A DNA stretch of 47,131 nucleotides from Saccoglossus kowalevskii (Eukaryota; Hemichordata; Enteropneusta; Harrimaniidae): positions 311,828 to 358,958 of the forward strand of contig NW_003105604.1 of assembly GCF_000003605.2 (NCBI RefSeq). Reading direction: 5' to 3'. The number at the start of each line of letters is the position of its first letter. Position 1 is the stretch's first letter. A program made the translations under genes and the position numbers. The notes under the pieces are model-generated. The model searched no databases. It saw only the letters and a list, made by a program, of their open reading frames with translations, and was not told the DNA's origin. This document shows, piece after piece, positions 9,832 to 44,231 of this stretch.

Positions 9832-12800
9832 ATGAATACTCGCACGAGTGCCGTGTCCCTTGCGTGTGTAACATGTGTTCTTATACTGGCAACATCAACG
9901 GTGACAGGATTTTTTATACGTAAGTAACATCGACTCTTTATCAATATTTTGTTAGTAACACTCTATATAAGCACGAATGTATACACAGTTCCTCTTTCAG
10001 TATTTCTATGATGATGTCTGTGATGTTAAATACATATTCTTTTACTATGATATAAAAAAACGAATCAAATACTGACAGTAGTACACTAGTAAGAGGTTCG
10101 ACATCCTACTGTTTTTGAACATAGGTGTGATCACCGTCCCGGTGTTGGGGGACGGTGGTGTGATATAAATCTAATTAAACATCGGTACCATCCATGGACA
10201 ATCTCATTTCTAAAATTGGCAATACGCTCTGTAAACTACCGGCAAACTACCGAGTAATTCAACGCAACATTGTTTATAATATTCTTTTTACAGGTAGGAC
10301 CGACCCTTGTAGACTGAACCGATGTCTGAATGGTGGAAGGTGTCATGCTCTATCGGGCAGTGGTTTCTACTGTAGTTGTCCCCGTGGATATCACGGTATG
10401 TCATGTTTTTTTATTAGGGGGTCTCAGAAATTGGATTTTTAAGTTTCAATTACAAGTGTCTGAATAAGTCGTCAACGCGAGTCACAATTTAGATGTAATT
10501 CTGGCACGTTTGTGTGATTTAGAATTTGAACCAGACTGTGTTTAAAATTAAATTGAATGAATATCACAAACGTAAAGCTCGTGTTTTGCATGCCGTAAAT
10601 ATCATCATATGCGCTTCATTGTCGCGTTCTAAAGTACACACGTATACCTGTATATAGCCCTGTCATTACTACAGTGATGGCAAGTATATAGTGCATATAT
10701 GCCATTCAGGAACAGCGATCATTCCCTGCGGCATTTACATATACTGATAACTGTAGTGTTGAATTTTTATTTTTTGTCAATTAAGTTTTTACCGGAAATT
10801 TACACAAATTTACACATATCAAGCATTGCAAAAATTAAATAAGAGGCTCCCTCAAATTGATGTATGTTGTTAAAACGTGGGGAACATGTTTAGGCTAACA
10901 GTCAGTCGAACAGATTTCTACGCATGCGTGATACGATCCATTCGATTCGTGTTTAATTGAGTGATTATTTGAATATGCTTCACAGTGTCAGGTGTCGATA
11001 TATTTCGAAGGGTTGGGATTTACTCCCCCGTAATACGATCCAATTAACCATGGTGGTTATCGTTATAAATTCACCCATGTCTCAGTGATAATGTCAAGTA
11101 TTGATTTGCATTAGTATTTTGATAGATCTGTTTAATGAAGAAATCGCCCATACAGATTTATGATTTATTAAAAGTCAATTGATAAAATGGCTTTGATGCC
11201 TTCGTCTTCAGAAAGCATCGAAATTGACTAACGACTAGTTCTTTCTATATTATCGGATATAATGCTGTAAGCCGTCTACAAATTCCAATATTCAACGGAC
11301 AGTAAGATTGTAGTAATGAGATAAAAGTCGCCAAAACACAAGTTCGCAGTTTTCTCCCGTGTAACCAATGGTCACGTGATCGTAAATCGAAGACACTGTA
11401 TTTATTGGAGTACTAGTATTTGCGAAATCAGCTATGGTTCATACTCTGGACACATATGTAGGTTTCATGCGGCGTATCGATGATGCCAAATATCCGGTAA
11501 TTTGTAGTTTAAAAAGAAAAAAATGCCAGTAAATAGAAGAGTTAATTTCCTTGATGAGTCGATAAACTGTTGAAAAGTAGCTTGACGATCTTTGCATCTC
11601 ACCGAAATGTGCGTTTAGACGCCGGATACGCCAGACAAATAGTGACGTACTGCAGTGGCAGTCACGATCCCGTCAACTCACCGCGTTGATTTCTGACGCG
11701 TTCAGTTTGAATGAAAGGTGTACATTTCGTTCTGAACACAGTAGATTTAAATAGAAGATACACGTTTCTTATTTCATCTTTCATAAATTAATGCGTTATC
11801 AAGATAGCTTTTTAAAATAAATATCAAACTACTTGGGTTTGAGTGTAGAAGTCGTGAAACGTTTGATTTGTATTATATCTTTGGATAGTTTGAAAAATCG
11901 GACACTAAAGATCTTACGTCATAAGTAGTTTTCTTTAGATATAACATGTAAATACACAGACTGGATTGCATTGCAATGAGAAGACGCTTGTGTTACTGGT
12001 ACGTACTATCAATTCAATGCGCATGCGCTTTATATCACTAGCACGTACTATCAATGCAATGCGCATGGACATTTGCGTACTAGTTATTAATTACTACTTG
12101 ATGGAGACAATACTACCGCTTTGTTTACTTTAAACAATGGTTAAACGCTCGATGCGAATGTTAAATATTGTTAAACAATAATTGCTCCCGAGATCTCGAA
12201 TTTGCAAAAAGATGAGGATTATGGTCGTCATCTTGACAAGCCACCATGATAGGTATGTACTGTGATGAATTGATCTCTGTCACCATCATATTCACAGTGC
12301 ATTTTCTTTAGCGTCGTTGCTTTCATAATTCGATCATGTTTGTACATGTAATTGCAGTAATAAACTAAATTATTAACGCCTATCATTTACGTCATCGCCA
12401 AAAGATGGAAGGGAAGTGACGTCAATAAAGATGTGTTCTCTTGTTTTTCAAAAATATGATTGTTTGTCTGGTATCAATACAGGATACTGGAAATAGACAG
12501 ATAATGGGGCCATTGTCATACAAAATGTATGAGGCATGTCACGTATTAATTCTTTTTGTCGTCGACGGTGAACGACCTAACTATGGCTACAATGAGGGTA
12601 ACTGTAGTTAAAGGGGCACCTTCCAGTTAAGATTAATTTTACAACAAATTTGCTTTCTGGATTAAAATAACAATGGATAACAAAAGATAGATTAACATTG
12701 TAAACAACATAAACAATAGTGTCCCATGATTCTTTGGTGCAATCCATGGGATTGAGCGGTTCCCCTTTTTTTAACGACCTGTTTGGGTCGAGGTTGTAGT

Positions 12801-15598: not shown

Positions 15599-16135
15599 AG
15601 GTGTTTTAACTCAAAGTATACTAAAACTCGGCCTCAAGACACGTCGTTTCTTTTTTTAGCAAACATTTGAACTAGTGGTATGGGACACTTACATTTTTTT
15701 TAATTTCTATATTTTATTTATGGCAATTTGTCACGTATTTATGACAATTGTTTGGTTTTACTCGCCATTATTTAGTTTTTTATTCGACACGTTTGGGGAA
15801 GTATGTCGTAACCCGTGTTCTGATTGGTTGCCGACTCTAGGTACCAAAAAAAAAATAATAATAACGGCAAGAAAAACCAAAATAATAGCCAAAATAAATA
15901 ACAATGAATAAAATATTGGAATAACAAGTAAATAAATAGAAAAGAAGTAAATGGAGCATCGGGACGTTTATAAAAAAAAAGCTCCATATACAGTATTTTT
16001 CCGTGGCCAAGTTGCCCTTTTCTTAAGTGTGCGCCCTCATCAGGGCTCAGACGAATAACATCATATAGTATATGTGCATCACCCATGTCATATACATAAT
16101 TCAAGATATATTTCTATTTCTGTGGGAGGCGAACC
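15599..16135. other. Non-coding stretch, possibly a repeat remnant
   Basis: AT-rich. A - strand frame of 110 codons (15772-16104) runs through poly-T/TTATTATT sequence and has no recognised product. The part at 15960-16060 (GCCCTCATCAGGGCTCAGAC and flanks) has the feel of an interspersed repeat, but ends could not be set. Confidence 0.35.
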
Positions 16136-16301
16136 AGCTCGTTGATATGACGTCACATACATGTTATAAATCCTAGTCACAACATGTCGTGCAGCTCGTT
16201 GATATGACGTCACATACATGTTATGAATCCTAGTCACAACATCTCGTGCAGCTCGTTGTTATGACGTCACATACATGTTATGAGTTCTAGTCACAACATC
16301 T
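16136..16301 (+). repeat. 57-bp tandem repeat, three copies, each with a perfect CRE
   Basis: Units start AGCTCGTTGATATGACGTCA and continue with CATACATGTTAT and CTAGTCACAACATCTCGTGC. Copies begin at 16136, 16193 and 16250; the last is slightly truncated. Each contains TGACGTCA, at 16148-16155, 16205-16212 and 16262-16269, all unchanged although other positions vary. It lies between the EGF gene and the 3' end of the first PNPLA gene. Confidence 0.93.
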
Positions 16302-16716: not shown

Positions 16717-16861
16717 TTAAAGCGGAAGGGTCGTCACCTGCACAAGCGACGATAACAACTTACACTAAAAACGCAAAGGCTCATGGGTAGACGCTTTTTT
16801 GTAAACAATGACACGCTATGGCCATCTGACGCATGCGCAGGTGACGACTCCTCCGCTTGAA
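16717..16861. mobile_element. Miniature inverted-repeat element with TTAA flank, copy 1
   Basis: A 137-bp element (16721-16857) whose left end AGCGGAAGGGTCGTCACCTG is the imperfect inverse of its right end CAGGTGACGACTCCTCCGCT. Flanks are TTAA on the left and TGAA on the right, read as a TTAA target duplication with one substitution. The interior (TAACAAC, AAAAACGCAAAG, GTAAACAATGACA, CTATGGCCATCTGACGCATG) matches the element at 33604-33768. It lies about 0.7 kb beyond the 3' end of the first PNPLA gene. Confidence 0.85.
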
Positions 16862-17579: not shown

Positions 17580-20500
17580 TCACGAACACACACATAGTTC
17601 TTGTTCCTCGTCCCGGACTACTTTTCCATTTTTGAGATACAAAAGTGTATCCTCATACCCGGTCCGGAAATACTCCATGTGCCTATTCCAAGTTTGTGGC
17701 AAGAGGGCGTCGTTGAGTGGCATAAAATTCCACGCTGTCCAGTCCACGGGGTAGCTAGTTGTGATAGATGATACTCGAACCGCGTTGCTGATATTTTTCA
17801 CTTTCGGTCCGATGTCTATTCCGTCGCCTAAAAATGGCGCAACTGTAATTGTTTTAGAGAACCCGGGAAATATGTCTTCAGTGGGAATATTATTCGTAAG
17901 TCCGGTGTCCATCCAGCACTAAAAAAGGGGAGCCAGAAAATAAAATGAGAATTTATTGGGGTTGTTTAGCCGCCAGTATGATGTTCATATCAACCAATCA
18001 ACCAATCAATTTACACATTTAAAAGTGGACCACCTGGGTGGGTATTATAATAGCGAATAAAAGCCACATGGAAAATTTCATCTTTTTTCTCGATATACTG
18101 ACTAACATTAAGATACTGTGATAAAGTCCACCCCAACAAAAAAGAGGACATCATAATGTTCGCCAGAGTTCATTGACAACATCAGATGAAAAAGGCCATT
18201 GGGTCACTAAGCTTCTTTATAATGTGCACGTATGTGAATTTTGTGTAGATTTTTCACTCACCGATCCATTGTGTTGCGGCGGGCTTAGACCTCCCCATAT
18301 TGGTATGTAGCAGCTACCACTTAATACCTGTCAGTACAAAGGAGAAATTTACTAGTAGATAAAAAGAAAGTATTTCCCGCCAAAATATTTCGTAAATTCA
18401 TTTCGACACAGGCAGATATAGCTTACATGTTTGGATCAATCATTTGGAAGGGTTGGTCAACATTTTGGTTGAGAACATATATAAAAGTCTGATTTGTGAA
18501 ATGTGACAACCGTTTGACAACAGAGATGAAACAGATAAAACAGTACCAAAGTCCCTTCGAAACAAATTCTTTGCATGTCAAAACGAATGATTGTGGATGC
18601 GGCAACCGATGTCACGTGATATCATGGGGCCATGTAATACATTTCCACAAATCTCAGTATGTCTTTATTAATAAATCTCACCTCTATCAAGTTTTTCCTT
18701 GACTCATAATTACTGGTGGCGACACTGAAGTCTTCAGAGGTATCTATGAAGTGATTACGAAACATGTCGATAGCAGTAGTTCCCATGGTTGTCCCGAGTC
18801 GTATCCACTCGTGAGGGTCCATCCATGGCAACGTCATTGGTAGATGGAAACTTGAAGAGCGTTTCTGGAACCTATTGGAAGCAATGAATAGACGGTTCGT
18901 GGCAATGTCTTGAAGTGGGCCGTTGTCCTGTGGTAGAATTCTATCAAGTGTTTCACGAAGTCGCTCCGTGAGTGTCGGATGATCGTTCATTTTGATGCCG
19001 CCAGTGTATCGGATTTCGTCGACTATGCTGCGACAGGCTTCCATGTAATCCTGCATATGGTGAAATTTTGAAAAAAAAAACGGTATGACTATATATAAGA
19101 GTATTTGGTTAGAATGGTACAGATAGGGTTGCGTAGTTTAGTATATACCAGGCGTTATACTAGCGCATAGATTCAGAGCATAGCAATATCTCTCTACAGT
19201 CACATATTGGCTGTAACCGCACCCAGCATTTAAACTGACCAATGAGAGTCACGAAAGTATTTTTATGTATCAAAACTGTTATGCTATCCTGTCACACAGT
19301 ATGCCGTGCTCAGGTGATAGTGGGGTGGCGTAACACCCCATAGCTCTAGATTATATTACCAATAATGGTATTTTGGTTTCAGCGGGTTTTTTTTTAAGTT
19401 CAGTGACTGAAATGCTGTGGATACAATGGAAAAAGTACCATTTTTTAAATAATGAATAAAAAAACAATCATCATCCGTATCTATGTGCGAAGAGCCGCAT
19501 CGAAATGCAAAGACCGAGAAACAACAGAATAGCATTCGTAACAGTATACCCCCGTGTTTACGATGCTTTTGCTTCGGAATAATATGATCATTAGGCAGAA
19601 ACAAATTTTGCAAATATTTTTCCACATCACTGATGGTTTACGGCCAGCGGATTGTTATCACCAGAATAGTGTTGATGTCAATTTGTTTTCCTATATCAAT
19701 TAAGCCTAAATTGTTTTGTCATGAATATAGTTTTGCTGTCACTGTCTTTCTATTGTTGTACTGTGCAGACCCCCTCTTAAGCATCCCATAATTTTTAACG
19801 GCCAATCTACGAGTATCACTTCCAATATGTAGACGTGTCTACAAGCAACTTGCGCTAGATTTCAACATTCGGTGTCACATTGACCTTTGACTTTAAAATG
19901 AAAGTATTGATATCATAAATTGAACATCTTTCCTATCTTTCCGTTGTGAACATACGTACAAATATATACTTTGACCTTTGTATCATGTGGGTTACACAGT
20001 GAACAAGTGTGTTAAGTTTGAAGTTCCTAGCAATTAACCCTTGTAACCCAAACTGAACATACGTAAATACATACTGAGATCATGACTCTTCAGGACCATT
20101 TGACCCAATAATACGCCCAGGTGTTGTGAGTGGCATGTGCAAGGAACTCATCTGCCATATCATAAGGTCCTAGTTTTCCCCCATGAAGTTATATTACATA
20201 GTACGAGTACACATAAACACACACTGTGACATTGACCTTTTGTCCCTAAACGAACACGAGAAACATTGTTCCAAGTTTGAAGTTCCTAGCTACCCATCTT
20301 GTAGCTCAATACTGAACATACAAACACAAACAATAATGTTATCTTGACCTATTGACCCGGAAATATATGCAGGTTTTGCGAGTCGCATTGTAAGATTGTA
20401 AAATAGATCAAAGACAAATCCTCTGAATGGTGTAGCAAGTGGTGGAAACTAACTTGAGCGCTCGATCTGGCCGTAACGCTTGGACTGTATGTAAATTAAC

Positions 20501-20735
20501 TAATTGATGTACATAAAAATACACATACATATATACTTACGGATATTCGATCAGGACATAACAATAAAAGTGCTGCAGCTATCGATCCACTCGATGTCCC
20601 GCCGTAGAATTCCACATTATTCAGCAGTTCCTGAGCATTATTGTAGAGAGAGTGCGCCACCCCAAGTTGATATACACCCAGGAACGTACTGCCTCCAAAA
20701 CATAAGTTGATTTTGTTGTCACTCGTCGAGTTCAT
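17580..20735 (-). CDS. Patatin-like phospholipase/lipase, PNPLA family, paralogue A (322 aa)
   Basis: Four coding exons on the - strand: 20735-20541, 19050-18682, 18327-18262 and 17918-17580. All introns are GT/AG and phase 0 (donors GTAAGT, GTGAGA, GTGAGT). Exon 1 carries the glycine-rich nucleotide-loop-like oxyanion motif CFGGSTFLGVYQLG (residues 12-25) and the nucleophile elbow G46-T-S48-S-G50. Exon 3 encodes SCYIPIWGGLSPP, which corresponds to the CFIPVYCG strand of human PNPLA2, and exon 4 opens with W-M-D214-T-G, the catalytic aspartate of the Ser/Asp dyad. Family members hydrolyse acyl esters of glycerolipids at membranes or lipid droplets; the substrate here is unknown. At 322 residues it is nearer PNPLA4 than PNPLA2 and lacks the long C-terminal lipid-droplet region. 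The position after Asp is Thr, where the family usually has Gly. ATG at 20735 is preceded by a possible acceptor, so a 5' untranslated exon may exist. Confidence 0.88.
19960..20400. repeat. Diverged duplicated repeat in intron 1 of PNPLA paralogue A
   Basis: Two related segments about 270 bp apart share AGTTTGAAGTTCCTAGC, then TTGTA with a few changes, then CTGAACATAC. TGACCTTTTGTCC or TGACCTTTG-like phrases precede each. This looks like a decayed interspersed repeat with an internal period of roughly 270 bp. Exact ends are not clear. Confidence 0.6.
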
Positions 20736-20948: not shown

Positions 20949-20990
20949 CATACAACACAGTCCCTCAACGTTGAGGGACTGTGCATACAA
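20949..20990. mobile_element. 28-bp perfect palindrome flanked by 7-bp direct repeats
   Basis: The left arm CACAGTCCCTCAAC (20956-20969) is followed at once by its exact reverse complement (20970-20983). The palindrome is flanked by CATACAA on both sides (20949-20955 and 20984-20990). A target duplication around a structure that is all inverted repeat suggests a DNA transposon deleted down to its ends. A partner copy with the same ends and its own 7-bp duplication is at 35176-35209. It lies about 210 bp upstream of the PNPLA paralogue A start codon. Confidence 0.75.
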
Positions 20991-26879: not shown

Positions 26880-28690
26880 TAAAATAGCTGACGACATACA
26901 TAGTGACTCCATAGTGACCCGCACCAAAACAATCGTAGTCTACAGTGACGGGTCGTGCTCTATAGTGAGAATATCAAAGGAAACATAGACTGTGCTATAG
27001 GCTGTCACCCATAGTAACCCATGTCAAAATACCCAAAGCCTGCAGTAACGTGTTGTGATCCATGCCAAAAGAACCCGTAGTCTACAGTAATGGGTTGTGC
27101 CCATAGAGTGCCATACCAAAAGAACCATAGTTCATAGCATGGGTTGTAAGCCATAATGCCCCATGCCAAAAAACAGTCTGCAATAATAGGTTGTGACCCC
27201 ACTGTGACCCATAACAAAATAACCAAAATTTGCAGTAACGAGTTGTGAACCCATATCAAAAAACCCAAAGCCTGATGTAACGGTCTGTGACCCATGTCAA
27301 AATACCCAAAGCCTGCAATAATAGGTTGTGACCCCACTGTGACCCATAACAAAATAACCAAAATTTGCAGTAACGAGTTGTGAACCCATATCAAAAAACC
27401 CAAAGCCTGATGTAACGGTCTGTGACCCATGTCAAAATACCCAAAGCCTGCAATAATAGGTTGTGACCCCACTGTGACCCATAGCACAATAACCAAAATC
27501 TGCAGTAACGAGTTGTGAACCCATATCAAAATACCCAAAGCCTGCTGTAACGGGTTGTGACCCATGTCAAAGTACCCAAAGCCTGCATTAATAGGTTGTG
27601 ACCCCACTGTGACCCATAACACAATAACTAACATCTGCAGTAACGAGTTGTGAACACATATCAAAATACCCAAAGCCTGCTGTAACGGGTTGTGACCCAT
27701 GCCAAAATACCCAAAGCCTGCATTAATAGGTTGTGACCCCACTGTGACCCATAACACAATAACCAACATCTGCAGTAACGAGTTGTGAATCCATATCAAA
27801 ATACACAAAGCCTGCTGTAACGGGTTGTGACCCATGCCAAAATACCCAAAGCCTGCATTAATAGGTTGTGACCCCACTGTGACCCATAACACAATAACCA
27901 ACATCTGCAGTAACGAGTTGTGAATCCATATCAAAATACACAAAGCCTGCTGTAACGGGATGTGACCCATGCCAAAATACCCAAAGCCTGCATTAATGGG
28001 TTGTGACCCCACTGTGACCCATAGCACAATAACCAAAATCTGCAGTAACGAGTTGTGAACCCATATCAAAAAACCCAAAGCCTGCTGTAACGGTCTGTGA
28101 CCATGTCAAAATACCCAAAGCCTGCATTAATAGGTTGTGACCCCACTGTGACCCATAACACAATAACTAACATCTGCAGTAACGATTGTGAACCCATATC
28201 AAAATACACAAAGCCTGCTGTAACGGGTTGTGACCCATGCCAAAATACCCAAAGCCTGCATTAATAGGTTGTGACTCCACTGTGACCCATAACACAATAA
28301 CCAAAATCTGCAGTAACGAGTTGTGAATCCATATCAAAAAACCCAAAGCTTGATGTAACGGTCTGTGACCCATGCCAAAATACCCAAAGCCTGCATTAAT
28401 GGGTTGTGACCCCACTGTGACCCATAACACAATAACCATAGTCTGCAGTAACAGGTTGTGAACCCATATCAAAATACCAAAAGCCTGCTGTAACGGGTTG
28501 TGACCCATGTCAAAAGAACCACAGTCTACAGTAATGGGTTGTGACCCCATAGTGAGTCTTGCCAAAAGAACCATAGTCTGCTGTAACGGGTTGTGGCCCC
28601 ATAGTGAGCCTTGCCAAAAAAAACACAGTCTACAGTAATGGGTTGTCACCCATAGTGACCCATGTTAAAACGACCATAGTCTGCTACACA
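26880..28690. repeat. 135-bp higher-order minisatellite, about ten clean units plus degenerate flanks
   Basis: The marker ACTGTGACCCATAAC recurs at 27201, 27336, 27471, 27606, 27741, 27876, 28011, 28145, 28279 and 28414: spacing 135 bp, with two of 134. Each unit is made of three related ~45-bp parts, typed by CCAAAGCCTGCATTAATAGG, ATCTGCAGTAACGAGTTGTG and AAAGCCTGCTGTAACGGGTT. More diverged 40-50 bp monomers flank the array on both sides. Because 135 is divisible by three, the - strand is open for 357 codons (27005-28078) and 160 codons (28167-28649), encoding a 45-residue hydrophobic repeat; the frame is lost where units are 134 bp. Confidence 0.95.
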
Positions 28691-29439: not shown

Positions 29440-32400
29440 CTAATCTCTGACAAGACGTCTTAAGAATCTGTCCGTATCGAAGAAACCGTACTCGTAGTAT
29501 TCATGCAACGTCTCGCCTGACTGTGGGTAGAGGGCGTCCTTTGCTCGGGTCAGGTTCCAAATACTCCAGTCGAGAGGTTGGCCTGTGAAGAATGTCGGGT
29601 CGCGCTCGACACCGTTGATGTTTTTGGCTGGACAGATGGACAGGTTATCCCCCATGTACGGTGATATAGATATGGTTTTGTAGTCGTTGGAAAAACAGTC
29701 TGTTCGTGGAAGGTTGTTCGTGAAGCCAGCGTCCATCCAACACTGAAATAAATAAAAAAAAAACCATTGCACATTATAATTAAAGATGAACTATTATTTC
29801 TACAGGACTGACAAGGTCAAAAATTGTGTGTAATTGATTTTGTGTTTTCCTCCACCAAAATATTTGTGTTGATTTATTTACCTCCTGCAAGTAATTTCGG
29901 TTGTGTTTGGTATTGTATATTTTTGTGTTCAATTTCACCCCCCTACTGAAATGGACCACCCCTAATGTGTGTATATTTGATAGTAAATGACGTGGCACTA
30001 CTTCTTTGTTTTATCACTTTTACACAAGATGACTGTGTGTTCCAGGACATTTTGGGAGAGTGTATTCAATGTTCACTCACCCGGTCAGGAATTGTCGGTC
30101 GGCTTTGAGGCGAGAGAAAAGTGCATTCAAATAGCGCCACCACCGACTAGTGAGTTTTTAAGTAAAAGTCGGTTTCAAATTGTGGCGAACACGCCGAAAT
30201 ATTAATCAAGAAATCAAAATTGTAATTATAACTTTCAAAACCACCATTAATACAAAGATGCATGCGGAGATGCAGGAAAATACATAGAAAGTAGTCGGAC
30301 TCGTCTTTGAATGTCACCATCGTGATTGTCCCTCTTATTCTGTTTTCTGTGTACATAAACCTTATTCCATCACGACGTTTAAGACGACATGCTAGGGCGG
30401 TGTGGCCATCTTCTTATCAGTATGGCAATATAATAAGCTATGTTGCCGTCAGCCAGGCAGGCGAACCTTAGCCAAGATTCTTGCAAAGTCTCATTCGTTC
30501 ATTGAATGAAATCCCCCACCCCAGTTGAGCCTATGGCATATATACTCATCCAAGGTAGGAATCGACTTCATTTGGGTCCTCAGTTAAAATTTGAACTCAA
30601 AAATAACAATCATGAGTACGATGCAACAACCACCAGGCTACCGGTGATCTTATTTAACAAAAAAATCGCCGTCGATGTGGGCATCGACGTCTGTAATTAT
30701 ATACCATTGGATGGTACGAACTGAAAATGGAGTGTTTACTCTTCACTCGCCCAATACACGCTATAACCTGATTGCGTTTGCGATCAACTTACCAAGTCAT
30801 CAAATTCCGGAAATTCTGGGCCTCCCCAAAGAGGAATGTACGTTGCACCAATAATTGCCTGTGAAGTAAACATCGATAATAATAATTGAAGATGAGGCTA
30901 AACTGAAGATTAGGAACTCGGTTATGATTTATTGGTAACTAAAACGTGACGTGTTCGCGCACAACAAAGTATGTTTTTTTCGTGAAATAGTGCGCATGCG
31001 TTTTGAAATACTGGCACGTACTTATTAATTCAAAGGGCAGCACGCTTACTTATTTGCAACGTTGCACCAAACGTATACTATTCTATGGAATATAAAGGCA
31101 TTTTATTTGTACGTACAACTGGCTGTGGTTTACCCAGAAAGTAGTACATTAATGGTACCGGTGGTAAATATGTGTTTGATGAAATAGCAGCATGCTATTC
31201 CTTACATAAATTTGTTTGAAAATTTAGGAATTAGTGACCCCGCGCAGGCACATACGTTATAATTCCAATGTGTTCCCTCAGTTGTCTGTATATCTATTTC
31301 ATTCGTTTTCCCGCATACTTAAAGGATGGCAGTCGTCGCGCCGCGTCCCGTTCGATATGGGACTCATAGCGACGTATACAACGCGTGTAAAATACATTGT
31401 TTATTTACATGAAATTCGAACACGCGCTGCGCGACGACCACCGCGCTTTAATGTTCAAAGGTGGATTGATAAGGCGTGCGTACAGTTTGACACCATTTAT
31501 CATGAAAATGCACCAGGATGGACGTTCATTCCACAAATGTGACAATGGGTTATTTACAAGTTCTAGAGTACGTGATATTCAATTACTAGTACGTCATCAA
31601 TATGTACCCTCGTTCGTAGCGAATTAGCGACACGCATGGGTGTCTGTTCGTACAGGCAATTTGTTTTCAGAAATTTGTAGCACTTCAATTAAACAGATTT
31701 TGACGATTATACCATGACCAGCTACCAACCAGAACAAACAAGATGGCGGCTTTGGTGACGTGTTCGGACAAAGGGTAATAGACCTTAGGACTTACATTAA
31801 TTAGATACTCGTTGTCTTTATACTCTGTGATAGGATGTAGTTTATTTTCAGGGAATACTGTCAACTTCTTAAAAATATCCAGCGCCGTAGTCCCCTTGGA
31901 AAGACCATACCTCATCCACGACGTGCCATCACCCCAGTACACCGGCATAGTGTAGTCGTGTTTCATCTTTTTGAAAGGCGTTGCTGTGATACACAGCCTG
32001 CCCGTCGCCTTTTGGTACGCGTCCTCCGGCAAAATCGACACCAGTACTTTCTTGAGTCTGTCTGCCAGAGATGGTTTCAGTTCCGGGCTGAGCCCGCCTC
32101 GTTTTCGGATTTCATCGGCTAGCACCTTAGCGTGTGCGATGTACTCCTGTTAAAATAAGTGTGTTTAGTAAAAATTGAGTTCGAATGTTTTGTGGGTAAT
32201 CGGAGGGTACGATCCTGATATCTTAATCAAAATTGGCGTTAGATCATTGCGAACAACTACGCAACTACTAGTGTGGGTTACAAACTGTCACAGTAAATTG
32301 CCGAATCTGTTTTTAAAACGTTAATTGTGTCCCAGTGGCAAAATAACAACACAGTTTTCAGCGTTAGGCGGAAGGCGCAATTCAAAAAGTTTATGTATAA

Positions 32401-34188
32401 CCTGCAGTACTGTAATGATTGAATTTCAATTATTGATACTCATTTACAGGCGCATTGTGGATATTTTGAAAGTGTAATACAATGATTTGTTTAGTATTGC
32501 TTGTTGATATTAATCACCGTAACTTAAAACGTTCTTCGTTTGATCAAAACCCAACAGGATCTATGATGTTTTGGTGATATATCATTGAGCGCATGCGTGC
32601 CGATACATTTCATTATTTCACAGAATGAATATGGTAACTTCTATGTTTGCTGCAAAAACATTTTTTTTTTAGTTTTAGAAGAATATTTTGTGCTGAAACT
32701 TATTCATATTTCTTCTATAAGTGACGTCGTGTGTTGGGGTGGATACAGGTTTTCACAAAGAAAGGTGCGAAAAAGCAGTTTCAAATTCCCCTCTTCTACA
32801 TTAATTTAGAAAAAAAAGTTTATGGTAGTTTATGACCCGTGTATTAGTCTTCTTTTGGGAGACATTTCTTGTTGGCAACTTATAACAAATAAGTCAGCAA
32901 ACAAATAAATAAATTGAAGTTGTTTGCCTATAGTAGCAATCTATTATCGCCCATTTCTTTAAGTGACGTTTTACTGTATTTGTACAATGACATTATTGTC
33001 TTTTGATTTCGATAACATTTTCTCAGAAATGGATACTTGTATAACCTTCCGTCTCCGGAAATATAGAAAACATACACTTAATGTGTAGCTAACAGTTCGT
33101 TTCACGACCCCTGGACATTTCAAGATGAAATGTTCAGCAAATTGCTTTCACGTAGTTTGTGGAAAGAGGAGTATCTGGAAAGATAGGAAATATTATGAAA
33201 TATTATGTCAAAGCGATCTGTCCACTCAATCAAATGAAAGCCAACTTTGATTGATCATGGATTCAATTTTTTTGAATGCCTTAGCAAACGTTAATTGTAA
33301 TCAACATTTTAAGTAAAAATATTTTTCACTATGTACGAAGGTATTTGGTAATCAAATGTTTGTATTTTGTAAACCACATCCTAAAATGAAGTCACATTGT
33401 GAGACTTAAGGCAAATCTAATGCTGTAATGTTATCCGACTGACTACTTTCGCACGTTTGTAATTTGAATTTTGTGTGATAATTACCAAGAATGATAATTT
33501 ATTCATCACTGACAAGCAACTGTACATATCAATATGAAAAATTATAGTTTGTATATACACTGAAAAGATGCACATCAACACTCCTAATGCTCACTTGATG
33601 TATTTAAAGCGGGAGGGTCGTCACCTGCGCACGCGCGGGAATTGAGTACCAAGCGATGATAACAACACACGCTAAAAACGCAAAGACTTATGGGTAAACA
33701 CTTGTTTGTAAACAATGACAAGCTATGGCCATCTGACGCATGCGCAGGTGACGACACCCACGCTTTAATTATGGCTTTTTCTGAACTCAGTTGGATGCAT
33801 AATGGTGTAAAATAGATCGTGTTTGAGTGTAATAAATGTACATATTACAAGTGAAATATATAATATGACACCAGGCACTTTGTATTGTCTATGTATACAG
33901 ACTGAAAAGGTTACGATCAACCAACGCACTTCCCCGATGCATCCGCCACATACGTAATACTATCTAAGTAATGTCCACGTAGAGGATACCTACCCCTATT
34001 TTATCCGGACATAACAGCAATAGAGCAGCAGCAATAACGCCACTGGACACTCCACTGTAGCACTCCACGTGATCCAGTAACGCCTGGCCATTATTGTAAA
34101 ACGCTTTAGCGACGCCTAACTGGTACGTTCCGAGAAATATCCCTCCGCCAAAGGCCAAATTCATTCTCCTATGTGCTTCGTCCGACAT
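29440..34188 (-). CDS. Patatin-like phospholipase/lipase, PNPLA family, paralogue B (304 aa)
   Basis: Four coding exons on the - strand: 34188-33994, 32146-31796, 30858-30793 and 29742-29440, all phase 0, with GT/AG introns (donors GTAGGT, GTAAGT, GTAAGT). Exon 1 has FGGGIFLGTYQLG (residues 13-25) and the nucleophile elbow G46-V-S48-S-G50, at the same position as in paralogue A. Exon 2 carries LPEDAYQKATGRLCIT, matching the L-P-x-D...GRL-x-I segment of PNPLA2. Exon 3 gives TYIPLWGG and exon 4 opens W-M-D208-A-G with the catalytic aspartate, then ITISPY-type YKTISISPYMGDNLSICP, close to the TITVSPFSGESDICP stretch of human PNPLA2. Exon 1 and exon 3 are the same length as in paralogue A, so the two genes arose by duplication. 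The family acts on acyl glycerolipids; the substrate here is unknown. A LINE end lies only about 120 bp upstream of the start codon. A possible acceptor just before the ATG hints at an upstream untranslated exon. Confidence 0.88.
33604..33768. mobile_element. Miniature inverted-repeat element with TTAA duplication, copy 2
   Basis: A 157-bp element (33608-33764) flanked by TTAA at 33604-33607 and 33765-33768. The left end AGCGGGAGGGTCGTCACCTG is the near-inverse of the right end (CAGGTGACGACACCCACGCT). It matches 16717-16861 through its interior, with about 20 bp extra near the left end. It sits in intron 1 of PNPLA paralogue B. TTAA target choice is typical of piggyBac-type elements, but the ends do not start with CCC, so the superfamily is uncertain. 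Confidence 0.9.
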
Positions 34189-35175: not shown

Positions 35176-35209
35176 CATTGACCACAGTCCAGAGGGACTG
35201 TGCATTGAC
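35176..35209. mobile_element. 20-bp near-palindrome flanked by 7-bp direct repeats
   Basis: CACAGTCC, a 4-bp spacer AGAG, then GGACTGTG (35183-35202), flanked by CATTGAC on both sides (35176-35182 and 35203-35209). The ends CACAGTCC/GGACTGTG are identical to the 28-bp palindrome at 20956-20983, and the right part AGGGACTGTG extends the match. The flanking duplication differs, so the two copies are independent insertions. Confidence 0.75.
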
Positions 35210-38381: not shown

Positions 38382-39284
38382 CAGTGACTTGTCGTTATTC
38401 AACACTGTGAAATGATCTTTACAAACACGGGTCCTTTTTGTTCTAGAAATACTTTAACAATTAACACGAATTTTCTTACCTTCTAGTGCAGATCTGTTAA
38501 TTTACGCAGAGATGGACTCGGAACTCAGAGATCTTCACTCGAACGTTCCACCTAATACACACGGCTTATTACGAACGCTTTAGGGATCGATGGTATCTAA
38601 GGTGTATGGATAAAAGCCGTATTGTGGGTCAACGAGGTCAATATTCTACCACATTGGTGACAGGGGCCGTGCCGTAACATGAAGTCGTCCTATCATTGTC
38701 TACGATCAGTGGAGTCAACCAATCGTTTACGGGGGTAGCTGCTAACCGACAACTTCAAAGAACACATTTATTTTTGTTGACATCAACTATAATAAATAAA
38801 ACGCTTACGGGAATGCGCATGCTCATTAGCATTCGGTGATTGAGAATGTACGTGATATAGTGCGTTTACACCGCTAAGCGTGTGCTCTGTGAAACCAACC
38901 AGAACTGACCCGACATGAAAACAGTTAAAAGTCTACAAATATTACATGATACATACTAAAATGGATCAAATACATTGGCAGGTGGACATCATTTAACGGA
39001 AGTGTGGTCACCCAACAACCAGCTGCCGTCTGAGAATTCAAAAGTTAATCTTTCCCAGCACTTAAAGCTTACGAGAACGTACACGCGCACTATTTCGCAG
39101 ATTAACCATGTCGCATCGTGTATTCCACGCGTACGTGTGCGTACGCGTTAACGGGATTGTTTGACACAGAATTAAACACTAGTCACATAACTGACGTCTG
39201 TGATTTATGATGTGGCCGTGCTGACATTATATCATAATATTTCAGTCAGAATGATTATATTTGAAGCACAAAAGAAAAGATTAT
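38382..39284. other. Non-coding stretch
   Basis: No gene recognised. It contains the alternating purine-pyrimidine segment at 39126-39148. Confidence 0.45.
39126..39148. repeat. Alternating purine-pyrimidine inverted repeat
   Basis: Arms ACGCGTACG and CGTACGCGT around a TGTG spacer (39127-39148). All 23 bases from 39126 alternate purine and pyrimidine, with many CG/CA steps, which is the composition that favours Z-DNA or a hairpin. Confidence 0.7.
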
Positions 39285-40062
39285 AAAATATTATAAAATC
39301 AATGTACACCAACATGGATTTTATAGTAAAGTTAAACGATGTCACCTCACCACACTTCAAATTACACAATGGAGTGAAACAAGGCTGCCCTCTAAGCCCA
39401 ACTTTATTCAACATCTACATGAATGACTTCACAAATGATCTAAATGAGCTACAAATGTCAGCACCCGAACTTAGTGGGAAAAAATCAACTGTATTCAATA
39501 CGCTGATGACATTGCTATACTGTCAACAACAAGTACTGGGCTGCCTTCGGCTCTGGCATCATCAATAATATAGTCATGACCACCAACCCCACGGCAGACA
39601 ACAAATCGTGATATTACCCTTACAAACATGTGTTATTATTTAAATACAGTGCAGCAATTAAATACTACCAACATACAAACAATAGAAAATACAATCTGGC
39701 ATACTATGCACTACAGGTTATGAAAGAAAATAAAAATACGGGGGCCTGCTTGTCAAAGCTAGAACAAAATCTTAAAATATCCTTGTAAAAACACTAATAT
39801 AAAAGATTGCTACAGTACATTACGGAAGAACGACAATATGAGAGACAATGAAAAGTTACAGTATTATCATACATACAAAGACAATCTTAACATTGTACAA
39901 TACTAAGAAGTATATTACACTGAAAATACTAGTAGTCGATATCATCAGATAATTAGCCAATTTTAGAACAAGTAATCACAGATTAGCAATAGAAACAAGC
40001 CGCTATACGAGACCAAAACACCAATGGAAGATACTAGTAGACTATGCACACAAAAGACAAAA
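39285..40062 (+). mobile_element. LINE relic, reverse transcriptase to C-terminus
   Basis: Reads KILKSMYTNMDFIVKLND, then HNGVKQGCPLSPTLFNIYMN (the R/K-Q-G-C-P-L-S-P block of non-LTR reverse transcriptases), then after a frameshift near 39485 CIQYADDIAILSTTSTGL with the catalytic Y-A-D-D box. A decayed spacer follows, and near 39960-40040 the C-terminal RTSNHRLAIETSRYTRPKTP motif. Frameshifts and stops show it is inactive. The D-D catalytic pair is intact in the fragment. Confidence 0.9.
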
Positions 40063-41395: not shown

Positions 41396-44231
41396 ATGGC
41401 GGCACATGTGAATGAAGTTGTTCTTCCAGGTGATATTTTACAAGAATTAAGTGATTCCGAGCAATATCCCAAACTTAGACTGGGTCCAGGTCTTAGGATA
41501 GATGTAGATAATGTGGTTGTATGCAAATGCGGCATTCTGAGGTTTAGAGAACCGAGTGTGTTCTGGGTAGACACACACCAGAAACGGGTAAGTGCTTCAT
41601 GTGAGTGCTCATGCAGCTGGAAATTTAGCGCTGGTTCGCGGTTCCAGGACCATATTTTACACGGATGGTTACGCCAGATCCAACTGTGTTGTAGAATGGT
41701 GAAAACTGGTAGCGAGTACATTTCATACAGTTGGAATCAGGGCTTCTAGGTCCACGTAATATTTTGATCATCAAAGTGTTTCCCTACAAAACTACGACTA
41801 TGTCCATCTGCGGTGTTTTGAGTCACGGTGTCATTCACTGGGGTCTTAGGAAATTACAGTGACTCTCTTGGGTTCTAGGGAGTCACTGATATTCACAGGG
41901 GTTCTAGGGGGTAAAAGCACCACTTGCCCTCTGTATGAGCAAACTCACGCGATGAACTCCACAAAATCTTGTCCACACATTATGTGACATATACTATTAA
42001 ATTATAAAATCATGATAGTGATAACAATTAGGAAAGAGTTCTTTTTGTACCCCCATCCCTAACCCTACCCCCAACTCTCCAGCACTCCCCATTTAATTGT
42101 ACATTCCCCTCCTAAGGACATCTATATCTAGAGGGGGCATATACAAATGAATTGGGTAACTAGGAGTGAGTGTTAGGGTTAGGGATGGGGATGGGGGTAC
42201 AAAAAGAACTCTTGTCAAAAATTAAGCAGTCATATTCCAGATTTTCCCTGGTAAAAGTAATGTGTAATATTTGTGTGAAAATGTAAATTGTTTTTTACAG
42301 TATGTTCCAGTTAAAGGGGAGAATATTCTGGGAATTGTGATATCCAAAGCCGGTGATGTATTCAAAGTTGATATCGGCAGTAGTGAAATGGCCACTTTGT
42401 CATATCTTGCGTTTGAAGGAGCAACTAAGCGTAACCGACCGAATGTACAGGTAAGACTCATGAAATGTATTTAATGAACATCCCATCTAATGTACAGGTA
42501 CGACTGGCTTAGCCCTGACAATTTTTTTATTCTTTACCATGACTGGTCTATTCTGAGCCATAATTATTGCTATTAATTATTCATGATGTATTGAAACCTG
42601 GGAGTAGAACACTTCTAAAAGAGGAAAGTAGGTGTTTGTTTTAGTTGTGTTGATCAGCTTACAATTCACGCTACTCATTAGCATATTTACCACCCCGAAA
42701 ACGTAGTGACAGCTATAGAGGGCACGAGAAAACAGATGTCAACATCAGAGATTTTAAAAATTCAGTTTTGAAAGCAATTATCATATAAAATTGTCATGGC
42801 TGGCCAGTCTATAAGACTTACAGAATGGACTTACTGAACAGCCAAACTAATAGTGTAAGGTTTCCTACATTTCTAACTTGTAGAATATCACGAGGTGGAT
42901 CACTTGTGATGTCACATACAAAGGATCTCTAATGATTACTTTAGTTGATTTTTTCACTCACTGAATATTTGTGGTGTTGACATTACCATTGTTATTATTT
43001 TGAGTCATAGAATATATTTAGAATATATTAATTACTGCCTTTAATAAATCATACAACATATTTACATATGACAATTTATTTACGGATGTTCACTGCTGTA
43101 CCAGCCATATAATTACTGTCCAGTTTTAATGAAATCATATTGATTTTCAGATTGGTGATTTGATATATGGTAAATTATTGGTAGCTAATAAAGACATGGA
43201 ACCTGAGATAGTGTGTATTGATAGTACTGGTAGAAGTAGTGGACTCGGTGTAATATCAGGAGGTTTCATGTTTAAATGTTCACTGGGACTTGTCAGAAAG
43301 TAAGTTGCTAATAGACAAAATTGCTGCCAAGATCTTGTTGAGGATGAGAAAGCTATGAGTTTTAACCAGTATCTTTCAATAGACCATTTTTCTTTCACTG
43401 CGAGATTCTGCGCTATGCGTGAAATCGAACGAAAAAATAGGACAAACAAAGGTCATGGCGTCGTAGTGGCGTCAAACATCGCGTGGGATTGGACAAACGC
43501 AAAAGTATTTTGGGGGACACTTCCATGCTTAATAATGTGCTGTATACATTTGATGATGGTAAATTTCAAGTAAGGGTATTCAAACGCAATATTCCCCTGT
43601 CGAAGATTGGCCTTTTGATGTGAGCTACAAAATAAAGAAATTCGATACAAAATCAAATTGTTCAATTTTTCCTGCAGACGTTTGGCATGTATCTTTCATG
43701 CAATTTGCAAGATCTTGCAGTTGAACAGAAAATCCCCAATTATTCTTCCTTTTTCTTCTATCATCTCGTCCATTGTGTCCAATACCATGGTTACACAGGT
43801 CAGACGTAATAACGGGAGGGAGTACAATGCTAAAACAAGTCATGTGACTCTCTCACTCTCAACAAAATTTACATCTGAAAGGTCTACCAGTATTTACGTC
43901 ACTATTTTGCATGTTTTTGCAAAGTGACGAAAGAGGTCATTGGACTTTAAAGTGTGCCCTTCAACTTGCGACATATGCTTGTTTGAAAAATGCTTAAATA
44001 TATTCTGATTTTGTTAACAGAATTGTATCTCCGGACTGTCAGTTGATGAAGCTACTTGGCAAGCACATGCCGTACGAGACTGCTGTCGGATTAAATGGAA
44101 GAATATGGATAAAAGCAAAGACGTTATCACATACGATTGCAATATCTAATGCTGTGTGTTGTGCCGAATACATGTCTAAGAAACAAACTGAAGTGATGGT
44201 TAAACAAATTGTCAGTTCACAATGGACGTGA
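41396..44231 (+). CDS. EXOSC3: Exosome complex component RRP40 (233 aa)
   Basis: Four exons: 41396-41587, 42301-42450, 43151-43299 and 44021-44231, joined in phases 0, 0 and 2 with GTAAGT, GTAAGA and GTAAGT donors and good acceptors. The product is one of the three S1/KH cap subunits of the RNA exosome, which contact RNA at the mouth of the barrel in nucleus and cytoplasm for 3'-5' processing and decay. Residues 1-64 form the N-terminal domain ([21 protein letters not shown]). Residues 65-114 hold the S1 core ([20 protein letters not shown], then [13 protein letters not shown]), nearly identical to the human segment, and 115-164 contain [18 protein letters not shown]. The KH part has [12 protein letters not shown] at 187-198. 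It is shorter than human EXOSC3 (275 aa), mainly at the N-terminus. The start context is CATCATGG. Intron 1 carries a fold-back element. Confidence 0.97.
42035..42212. mobile_element. 178-bp fold-back element with telomere-like bases in its arms
   Basis: The left end AGAGTTCTTTTTGTACCCCC, continuing ATCCCTAACCCTA, is the near-inverse of the right end, which runs GTTAGGGTTAGGGATGGGGA to GTACAAAAAGAACTCT. Arms are roughly 33-40 bp. No coding sequence is present and no clear target duplication was found. It lies in intron 1 of EXOSC3. Confidence 0.85.

Follow-up and report, generated by a model that had tools for sequence, protein, structure and literature searches.

Three ultra-short palindromic insertions with 7-bp target duplications, probable excision footprints of an undescribed P-superfamily DNA transposon

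Genes and repeats of the window

The window analyzed here is a single stretch of 47,131 nucleotides, probably of animal origin to judge from its genes, in which two tandem patatin-like phospholipase genes lie on the minus strand (17580-20735 and 29440-34188), with 36-62% identity over the three exons compared. The putative first coding exon of the one (20547..20735, minus strand) was identified by Pfam PF01734 (E = 6.8e-09) and by tblastn; that of the second (34000..34188, minus strand), supported by tblastn and by the same Pfam family, was 62% identical to the former over 63 amino acids (tblastn). An RRP40-like exosome gene was encoded on the plus strand, and the matches to EGF, SARA, and TFIIS domains were weak or short. 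A reverse-transcriptase fragment was found at 39227-39448 (plus strand; Pfam RVT_1, E = 1.7e-07).

Several repeats of other kinds were also observed. Two MITE-like copies (16717-16861 and 33601-33771) were 88% similar across 121 bp and had inverted ends around TTAAAGCGG.AGGGTCGTCACCTGC, and a 180-bp element-like stretch with 46-nt arms that were 89% complementary (AAGAGTTCTTTTTGTACCCCC...) was located just upstream of the first RRP40_S1 match, at 42034-42213. Tandem arrays comprised (i) units of 32 bp at 431-1279, in approximately 27 copies, with some units of 29 bp; (ii) three near-identical units of 57 bp at 16135-16301, with TGACGTCA; and (iii) 10.6 copies of a 135-bp unit at 27178-28603, itself made of shorter units and giving rise to spurious long reading frames on the minus strand.

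Three palindromic sites with 7-bp target duplications

Three ultra-short insertions, each having short matching inverted ends inside a perfect 7-bp duplication, were confirmed in the window; their features are given here without strand. At site 1 (20949-20990), two copies of CATACAA, both read directly from the sequence (20949..20955 and 20984..20990), enclose a perfect palindrome of 28 bp (20956..20983; core CACAGTCCCTCAACGTTGAGGGACTGTG) made of 14 + 14 nt of the terminal repeat CACAGTCCCTCAAC, and the whole reads CATACAA-CACAGTCCCTCAAC-GTTGAGGGACTGTG-CATACAA with zero mismatches. With a stem of 14, this core is the longest gapless perfect palindrome of the window, the runner-up having a stem of 9. 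At site 2 (35176-35209), exact copies of CATTGAC (35176..35182 and 35203..35209) enclose a core of 20 bp (35183..35202; CACAGTCCAGAGGGACTGTG) that consists of 8 nt of left repeat, an A, and 11 nt of right repeat, the whole reading CATTGAC-CACAGTCC-A-GAGGGACTGTG-CATTGAC. Both sites had been described in the first-pass annotation, and both the bracketed palindrome and the second copy proved exact.

An additional site, absent from that annotation, surfaced in a scan for inverted repeats combined with direct duplications. At site 3 (10125-10164), exact copies of GTGTGAT (10125..10131 and 10158..10164) enclose a core of 26 bp (10132..10157; CACCGTCCCGGTGTTGGGGGACGGTG) made of 9 nt of a left repeat variant, CACCGTCCC, and 17 nt on the right, the whole reading GTGTGAT-CACCGTCCC-GGT-GTTGGGGGACGGTG-GTGTGAT. 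Fourteen of the 17 nt on the right are clear repeat, in the variant form CACCGTCCCCCAAC when read on the other strand, which has 2 changes from CACAGTCCCTCAAC over 14 positions; the GGT represents either repeat positions 15-17 or filler.

The target duplication was exactly 7 bp at all three sites, the eighth base being mismatched in each, while the cores differed in length (28, 26, and 20 bp at sites 1, 3, and 2, respectively) and had three different centers. The repeat occurred in two variants, A/T versus C/C at positions 4/10, and each was symmetric within the arms of its own copy, to the extent that the retained letters show. The two ends retained 14/14 nt (site 1), 8/11 nt (site 2), and 9/14-17 nt (site 3), that is, at most 17 nt in 3/3 on the visible letters, the repeat being visible to position 14. 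A consensus of the terminal repeat would begin CAC(A/C)GTCCC(T/C)CAAC, and parent ends would be expected as CACMGTCCCYCAAC. Matched inverted ends combined with an exact duplication of constant length give good support for insertion by a cut-and-paste transposon, and the insertion boundary, terminal inverted repeats, and 7-bp target duplication that had been proposed all hold, for three sites rather than two.

Sites 1 and 2 each lie upstream of a different patatin-like gene, starting 221 and 995 bp, respectively, before its putative ATG. The two are nonetheless separate insertions, and were not duplicated along with the gene, because their target copies differ.

Chance expectation and control searches

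A family-blind scan of the whole window for exact arms of at least 7 bp touching exact flanking duplications, with 14-60 bp between the copies, returned three matches for 7-bp duplications, all of them the sites described above, by a design that is biased toward compact symmetric scars and that other scars may have escaped. The same scan gave no match for duplications of 5, 6, 8, or 10 bp, two unrelated matches at 4 bp, and a single match at 9 bp, which was the 28-bp palindrome of site 1 in a different register. Among 500 dinucleotide-preserving shuffles, the 7-bp scan gave no match in 493, one match in 7, and never two. The signal depends on the demand for real arms, and the contrast fades when this is relaxed: with a minimum arm of 4 bp, 5 matches at 7 bp were found in the window versus a maximum of 4 in any shuffle, and when arms of 5 bp or longer and distances of up to 200 bp between the copies were allowed, the window gave 13, 9, 3, 1, 5, 1, and 5 matches for duplications of 5 to 11 bp, respectively. 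The long tandem arrays of the window may account for some of the extra matches under the relaxed scan.

As a control that addresses the hairpin but not the host genome, the arrangement CACAGTCC-N0-20-GGACTGTG was sought in IMG/VR, where it was found in 84 stretches (viral/microbial hairpins). No exact 7-bp flanking duplication was seen in any of the 83 testable matches, two of which had one with 2 mismatches and among which the longest exact duplication was 3 bp; the 84th (L082) was left out, as its match starts at base 2 with no readable left flank. The longer form, with 14-bp arms and a gap of 0-20 bp, was found neither in IMG/VR nor in the prokaryote genome collection, sets that are not of animal genomes, have little bearing on relatives, and may omit the window's own genome.

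Search for a parent element and its superfamily

A search for CACNGTCC/GGACNGTG ends (up to 1 mismatch) lying up to 6 kb apart and flanked by a 7- or 8-bp duplication (up to 1 mismatch) identified no longer element in the window; apart from the three sites, it returned a single imperfect pair sharing the left end at 35183. A six-frame Pfam scan of the window (E 0.01) revealed no THAP or P-transposase domain; it was run on pieces divided near 15, 30, and 45 kb, and an exon smaller than a domain may go undetected. If the sites are scars, then no transposase is expected inside them. A literature search for CACAGTCCC together with transposon and inverted repeat gave no match, and a limited search, mostly without subscription journals, found no account that treats naturally dispersed P-type scars as a class of repeats.

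Several superfamilies were set aside by duplication length. A hAT origin is disfavored by the 7-bp duplication at 3/3 sites and by the 0 scan matches at 8 bp. Signal ends of the RAG type, considered because the repeat starts CACAGT, were set aside, as the duplications made by RAG and by Transib are 5 bp long. Duplication length also spoke against Transib itself and Tc1/pogo, with reference to Table 3 of PMC3276498. Of the earlier suggestion of a hAT or P-type transposase, the P-type half is supported, the hAT half being disfavored also by the 8-bp duplications given for hobo in that table.

Origin of the insertions

We regard the three sites as excision footprints of an undescribed P-superfamily DNA transposon that made 7-bp target duplications, a reading to which we assign a probability of about 0.7. 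From the letters that remain, we infer the former presence of a larger element, its P-type identity, the length of its tails, and the route of repair. The P superfamily is favored in part because a 7-bp duplication is known for 1360 and Galileo: among the TIR rows of Table 3 in PMC3276498, 7 bp is given for 1360 (P superfamily) alone, at 274/279 sites, whereas the P element and hobo have 8 bp, pogo and S-element 2 bp, and hopper and transib2 5 bp, and the duplication of Galileo, also of the P superfamily, is described as mostly 7 bp (PMC4168063).

The anatomy of the sites, with a 7-bp duplication on both sides, at most 17 nt per end (on the visible letters), and three different, irregular junctions, points to P-element excision followed by end joining by its match to the repair junctions of Drosophila in Table 1 of PMC2895639. 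When Drosophila P transposase excises P{wa}, the chromosome ends are left with single-stranded 3' tails of 17 nt of repeat (PMC2895639); this 17-nt stagger is described as unusually long, and long repeat-bearing tails as unusual for P-type cleavage (PMC7776569). By our recount, Table 1 lists 66 isolates from Rad51-deficient males, 44 of which retain both 8-bp target copies; in the other 22, at least part of a target copy is gone. Among the 44, all from this Rad51-deficient background, terminal arms of at least 7 were counted in 40 and perfect palindromes in 19, while the distance between the copies was at most 34 bp in 30 (20-28 bp in 6) and more than 34 bp in 14. The commonest junction among the 44 (14 isolates) is a 30-bp palindrome, CATGATGAAATAAC-AT-GTTATTTCATCATG, and one-base insertions, such as that of site 2, and a blunt join are also present in the table.

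Several observations count against the P-type reading. Neither a parent with these ends nor a THAP or P-transposase domain was found in the window at the thresholds given above. Three scars in 47 kb (approximately one per 16 kb), with no parent in the same 47 kb, is dense, a density that the reading leaves unexplained, and all three scars are compact, unlike a sizeable share of the fly junctions. The Rad51-deficient background of the fly table, the 8-bp duplications and larger flanking deletions known from the zebrafish P-like element and its THAP9, and the lack of a clear match of the target copies to the 1360 motif weigh on the same side. It is conceivable, if rather doubtful, that P-type excision in the host genome is a near-complete, perhaps regular (programmed or somatic) event that has left a natural record of great density, or else that the 20- to 28-bp palindromes are themselves mobile. 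In the former case, each site would preserve one outcome of double-strand-break repair; in the latter, the mobile palindromes would, to our knowledge, be far smaller than any known transposon.

An origin in another or unknown superfamily with 7-bp duplications, the sites then being footprints or collapsed remnants in which excision or abortive gap repair left long pieces of repeat, seems unlikely. In its favor, the cut-and-paste insertion is itself well supported, and the superfamily assignment draws on three features, namely, the duplication length, the CA ends, and the scar anatomy; that the Pfam scan found no transposase in the window is likewise compatible with such an origin. Against it, 7 bp is given among the TIR families of PMC3276498 for the P superfamily only, long repeat-bearing tails are described as an unusual property of P-type cleavage (PMC7776569), and gap repair should leave end pieces of varying and often far greater length, whereas 3/3 sites here keep at most 17 nt per end.

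The first-pass annotation had instead suggested a family of extremely small elements mobilized as such, a part of it that the present tests do not support. Elements barely longer than their terminal repeats, mobilized in trans by a transposase, would account for three independent 7-bp targets, three matched pairs of ends, and the lack of a longer copy in the window. A mobile mini-element would, however, be expected to be copied together with its center, and the three sites have three lengths, three centers, and two repeat variants; moreover, the subterminal repeats and internal transposase-binding sites carried by P-type elements (PMC7776569) could not fit into 20-28 bp. We therefore consider ultra-short mobile elements improbable and not the best reading. 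Because the lengths and centers differ, the two variants are each symmetric in their own copy, and at most 17 nt is kept per end, the sites would be remains and not mobile units, and the same differences, with the symmetry of the variants, argue for separate parents with intact symmetric ends.

Chance hairpins lying next to chance repeats, or a structured regulatory palindrome that arose without transposition, are strongly disfavored and very improbable, since hairpins with the letters CACAGTCC...GGACTGTG do occur elsewhere (the 84 IMG/VR matches) but an exact 7-bp duplication flanks 3/3 here versus 0/83 there and the shuffles never reached 2, the control and the shuffles together rejecting a chance origin of the three sites.

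Proposed route from insertion to scar

If the sites are P-type excision footprints, a larger element would have inserted at each of them, generating the 7-bp duplication, and a transposase would later have excised it by a long staggered cut within the terminal repeat (17 nt in Drosophila P). Each broken chromosome end would then have carried a single target copy followed by an unpaired tail with up to 17 nt of repeat, and end joining, probably through microhomology and polymerase theta, would have annealed or trimmed the like tails to cores of 28, 26, and 20 bp. Tails of identical sequence could pair only through a self-complementary stretch. For the palindrome of scar 1, the tails may have paired via CG, ACGT, or AACGTT, which would need at least a G at repeat position 15, and fill-in with trimming would yield 28 bp as 15+15-2 (CG, with the repeat running ...CAACG), 16+16-4 (ACGT), or 17+17-6 (AACGTT). 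The pairing route thus predicts that position 15 of the parent repeat is a G; a blunt join of the ends at position 14, an alternative route without this prediction, would give the identical letters. Scar 2 would require a one-base filler or a mutation, and scar 3 could represent 9 nt joined either to a full 17-nt tail or, through a GGT filler, to 14 nt. If the tail is a full one, the C/C variant may read ACC at repeat positions 15-17.

Were this reading true, very short palindromes with 7-bp duplications would form a readable fossil record of P-type cleavage beyond laboratory flies: the limit on scar length would show how far the cut is staggered, and the centers would provide natural spectra of end joining. 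Such scars could pass for miniature transposons, binding-site palindromes, or hairpins.

Comparison with known systems

MITEs share with the three sites the terminal inverted repeats, the target duplication, and the lack of coding capacity, but the scars are only 20-28 bp and have no common internal sequence. Copies alike in length and interior, as expected of MITEs, were not found, the cores being of 28, 26, and 20 bp with three centers, as judged in this window only.

Within the P superfamily, 1360 (Hoppel) and Galileo make 7-bp duplications like those of the scars (PMC3276498; PMC4168063), and full-size elements are known for both. Their target motifs, GTTNAAC for 1360 and GTATTAC for Galileo, had no clear match by eye in the target copies here, nor was a motif shared by the three empty sites (n = 3) seen by eye. 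The zebrafish Pdre2/THAP9 element is described as a full element with transposase and 8-bp duplications (PMC10983969). Its 13-bp repeat, CATACCTGTCAAC, bears by eye a vague likeness to the 14-bp CACAGTCCCTCAAC, with a CA start, a ..TCAAC end, and, weakly, AAC at positions 11-13 versus 12-14 here. Zebrafish THAP9 in fly cells is reported to have left larger flanking deletions, and neat scars are thus not universal to P-type enzymes (PMC10983969).

The closest likeness is to the excision products of the Drosophila P element, as given in Table 1 of PMC2895639. These differ from the scars in their 8-bp target copies, in the letters of the repeat, and in being laboratory events at one insertion as opposed to separate natural sites. 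In common with the scars, they have both target copies, at most 17 nt per end, palindromic or near-palindromic junctions, and small fillers, and their span of 7 to 44 bp (n = 44) overlaps the 20, 26, and 28 bp found here. The ends of Drosophila P also begin with CA, and AAC occupies positions 12-14 in both repeats, a weak likeness by eye. By eye, too, the palindrome at 20956-20983 has the same build as the commonest fly junction, the 30-bp palindrome, each reaching AAC at positions 12-14 and then turning.
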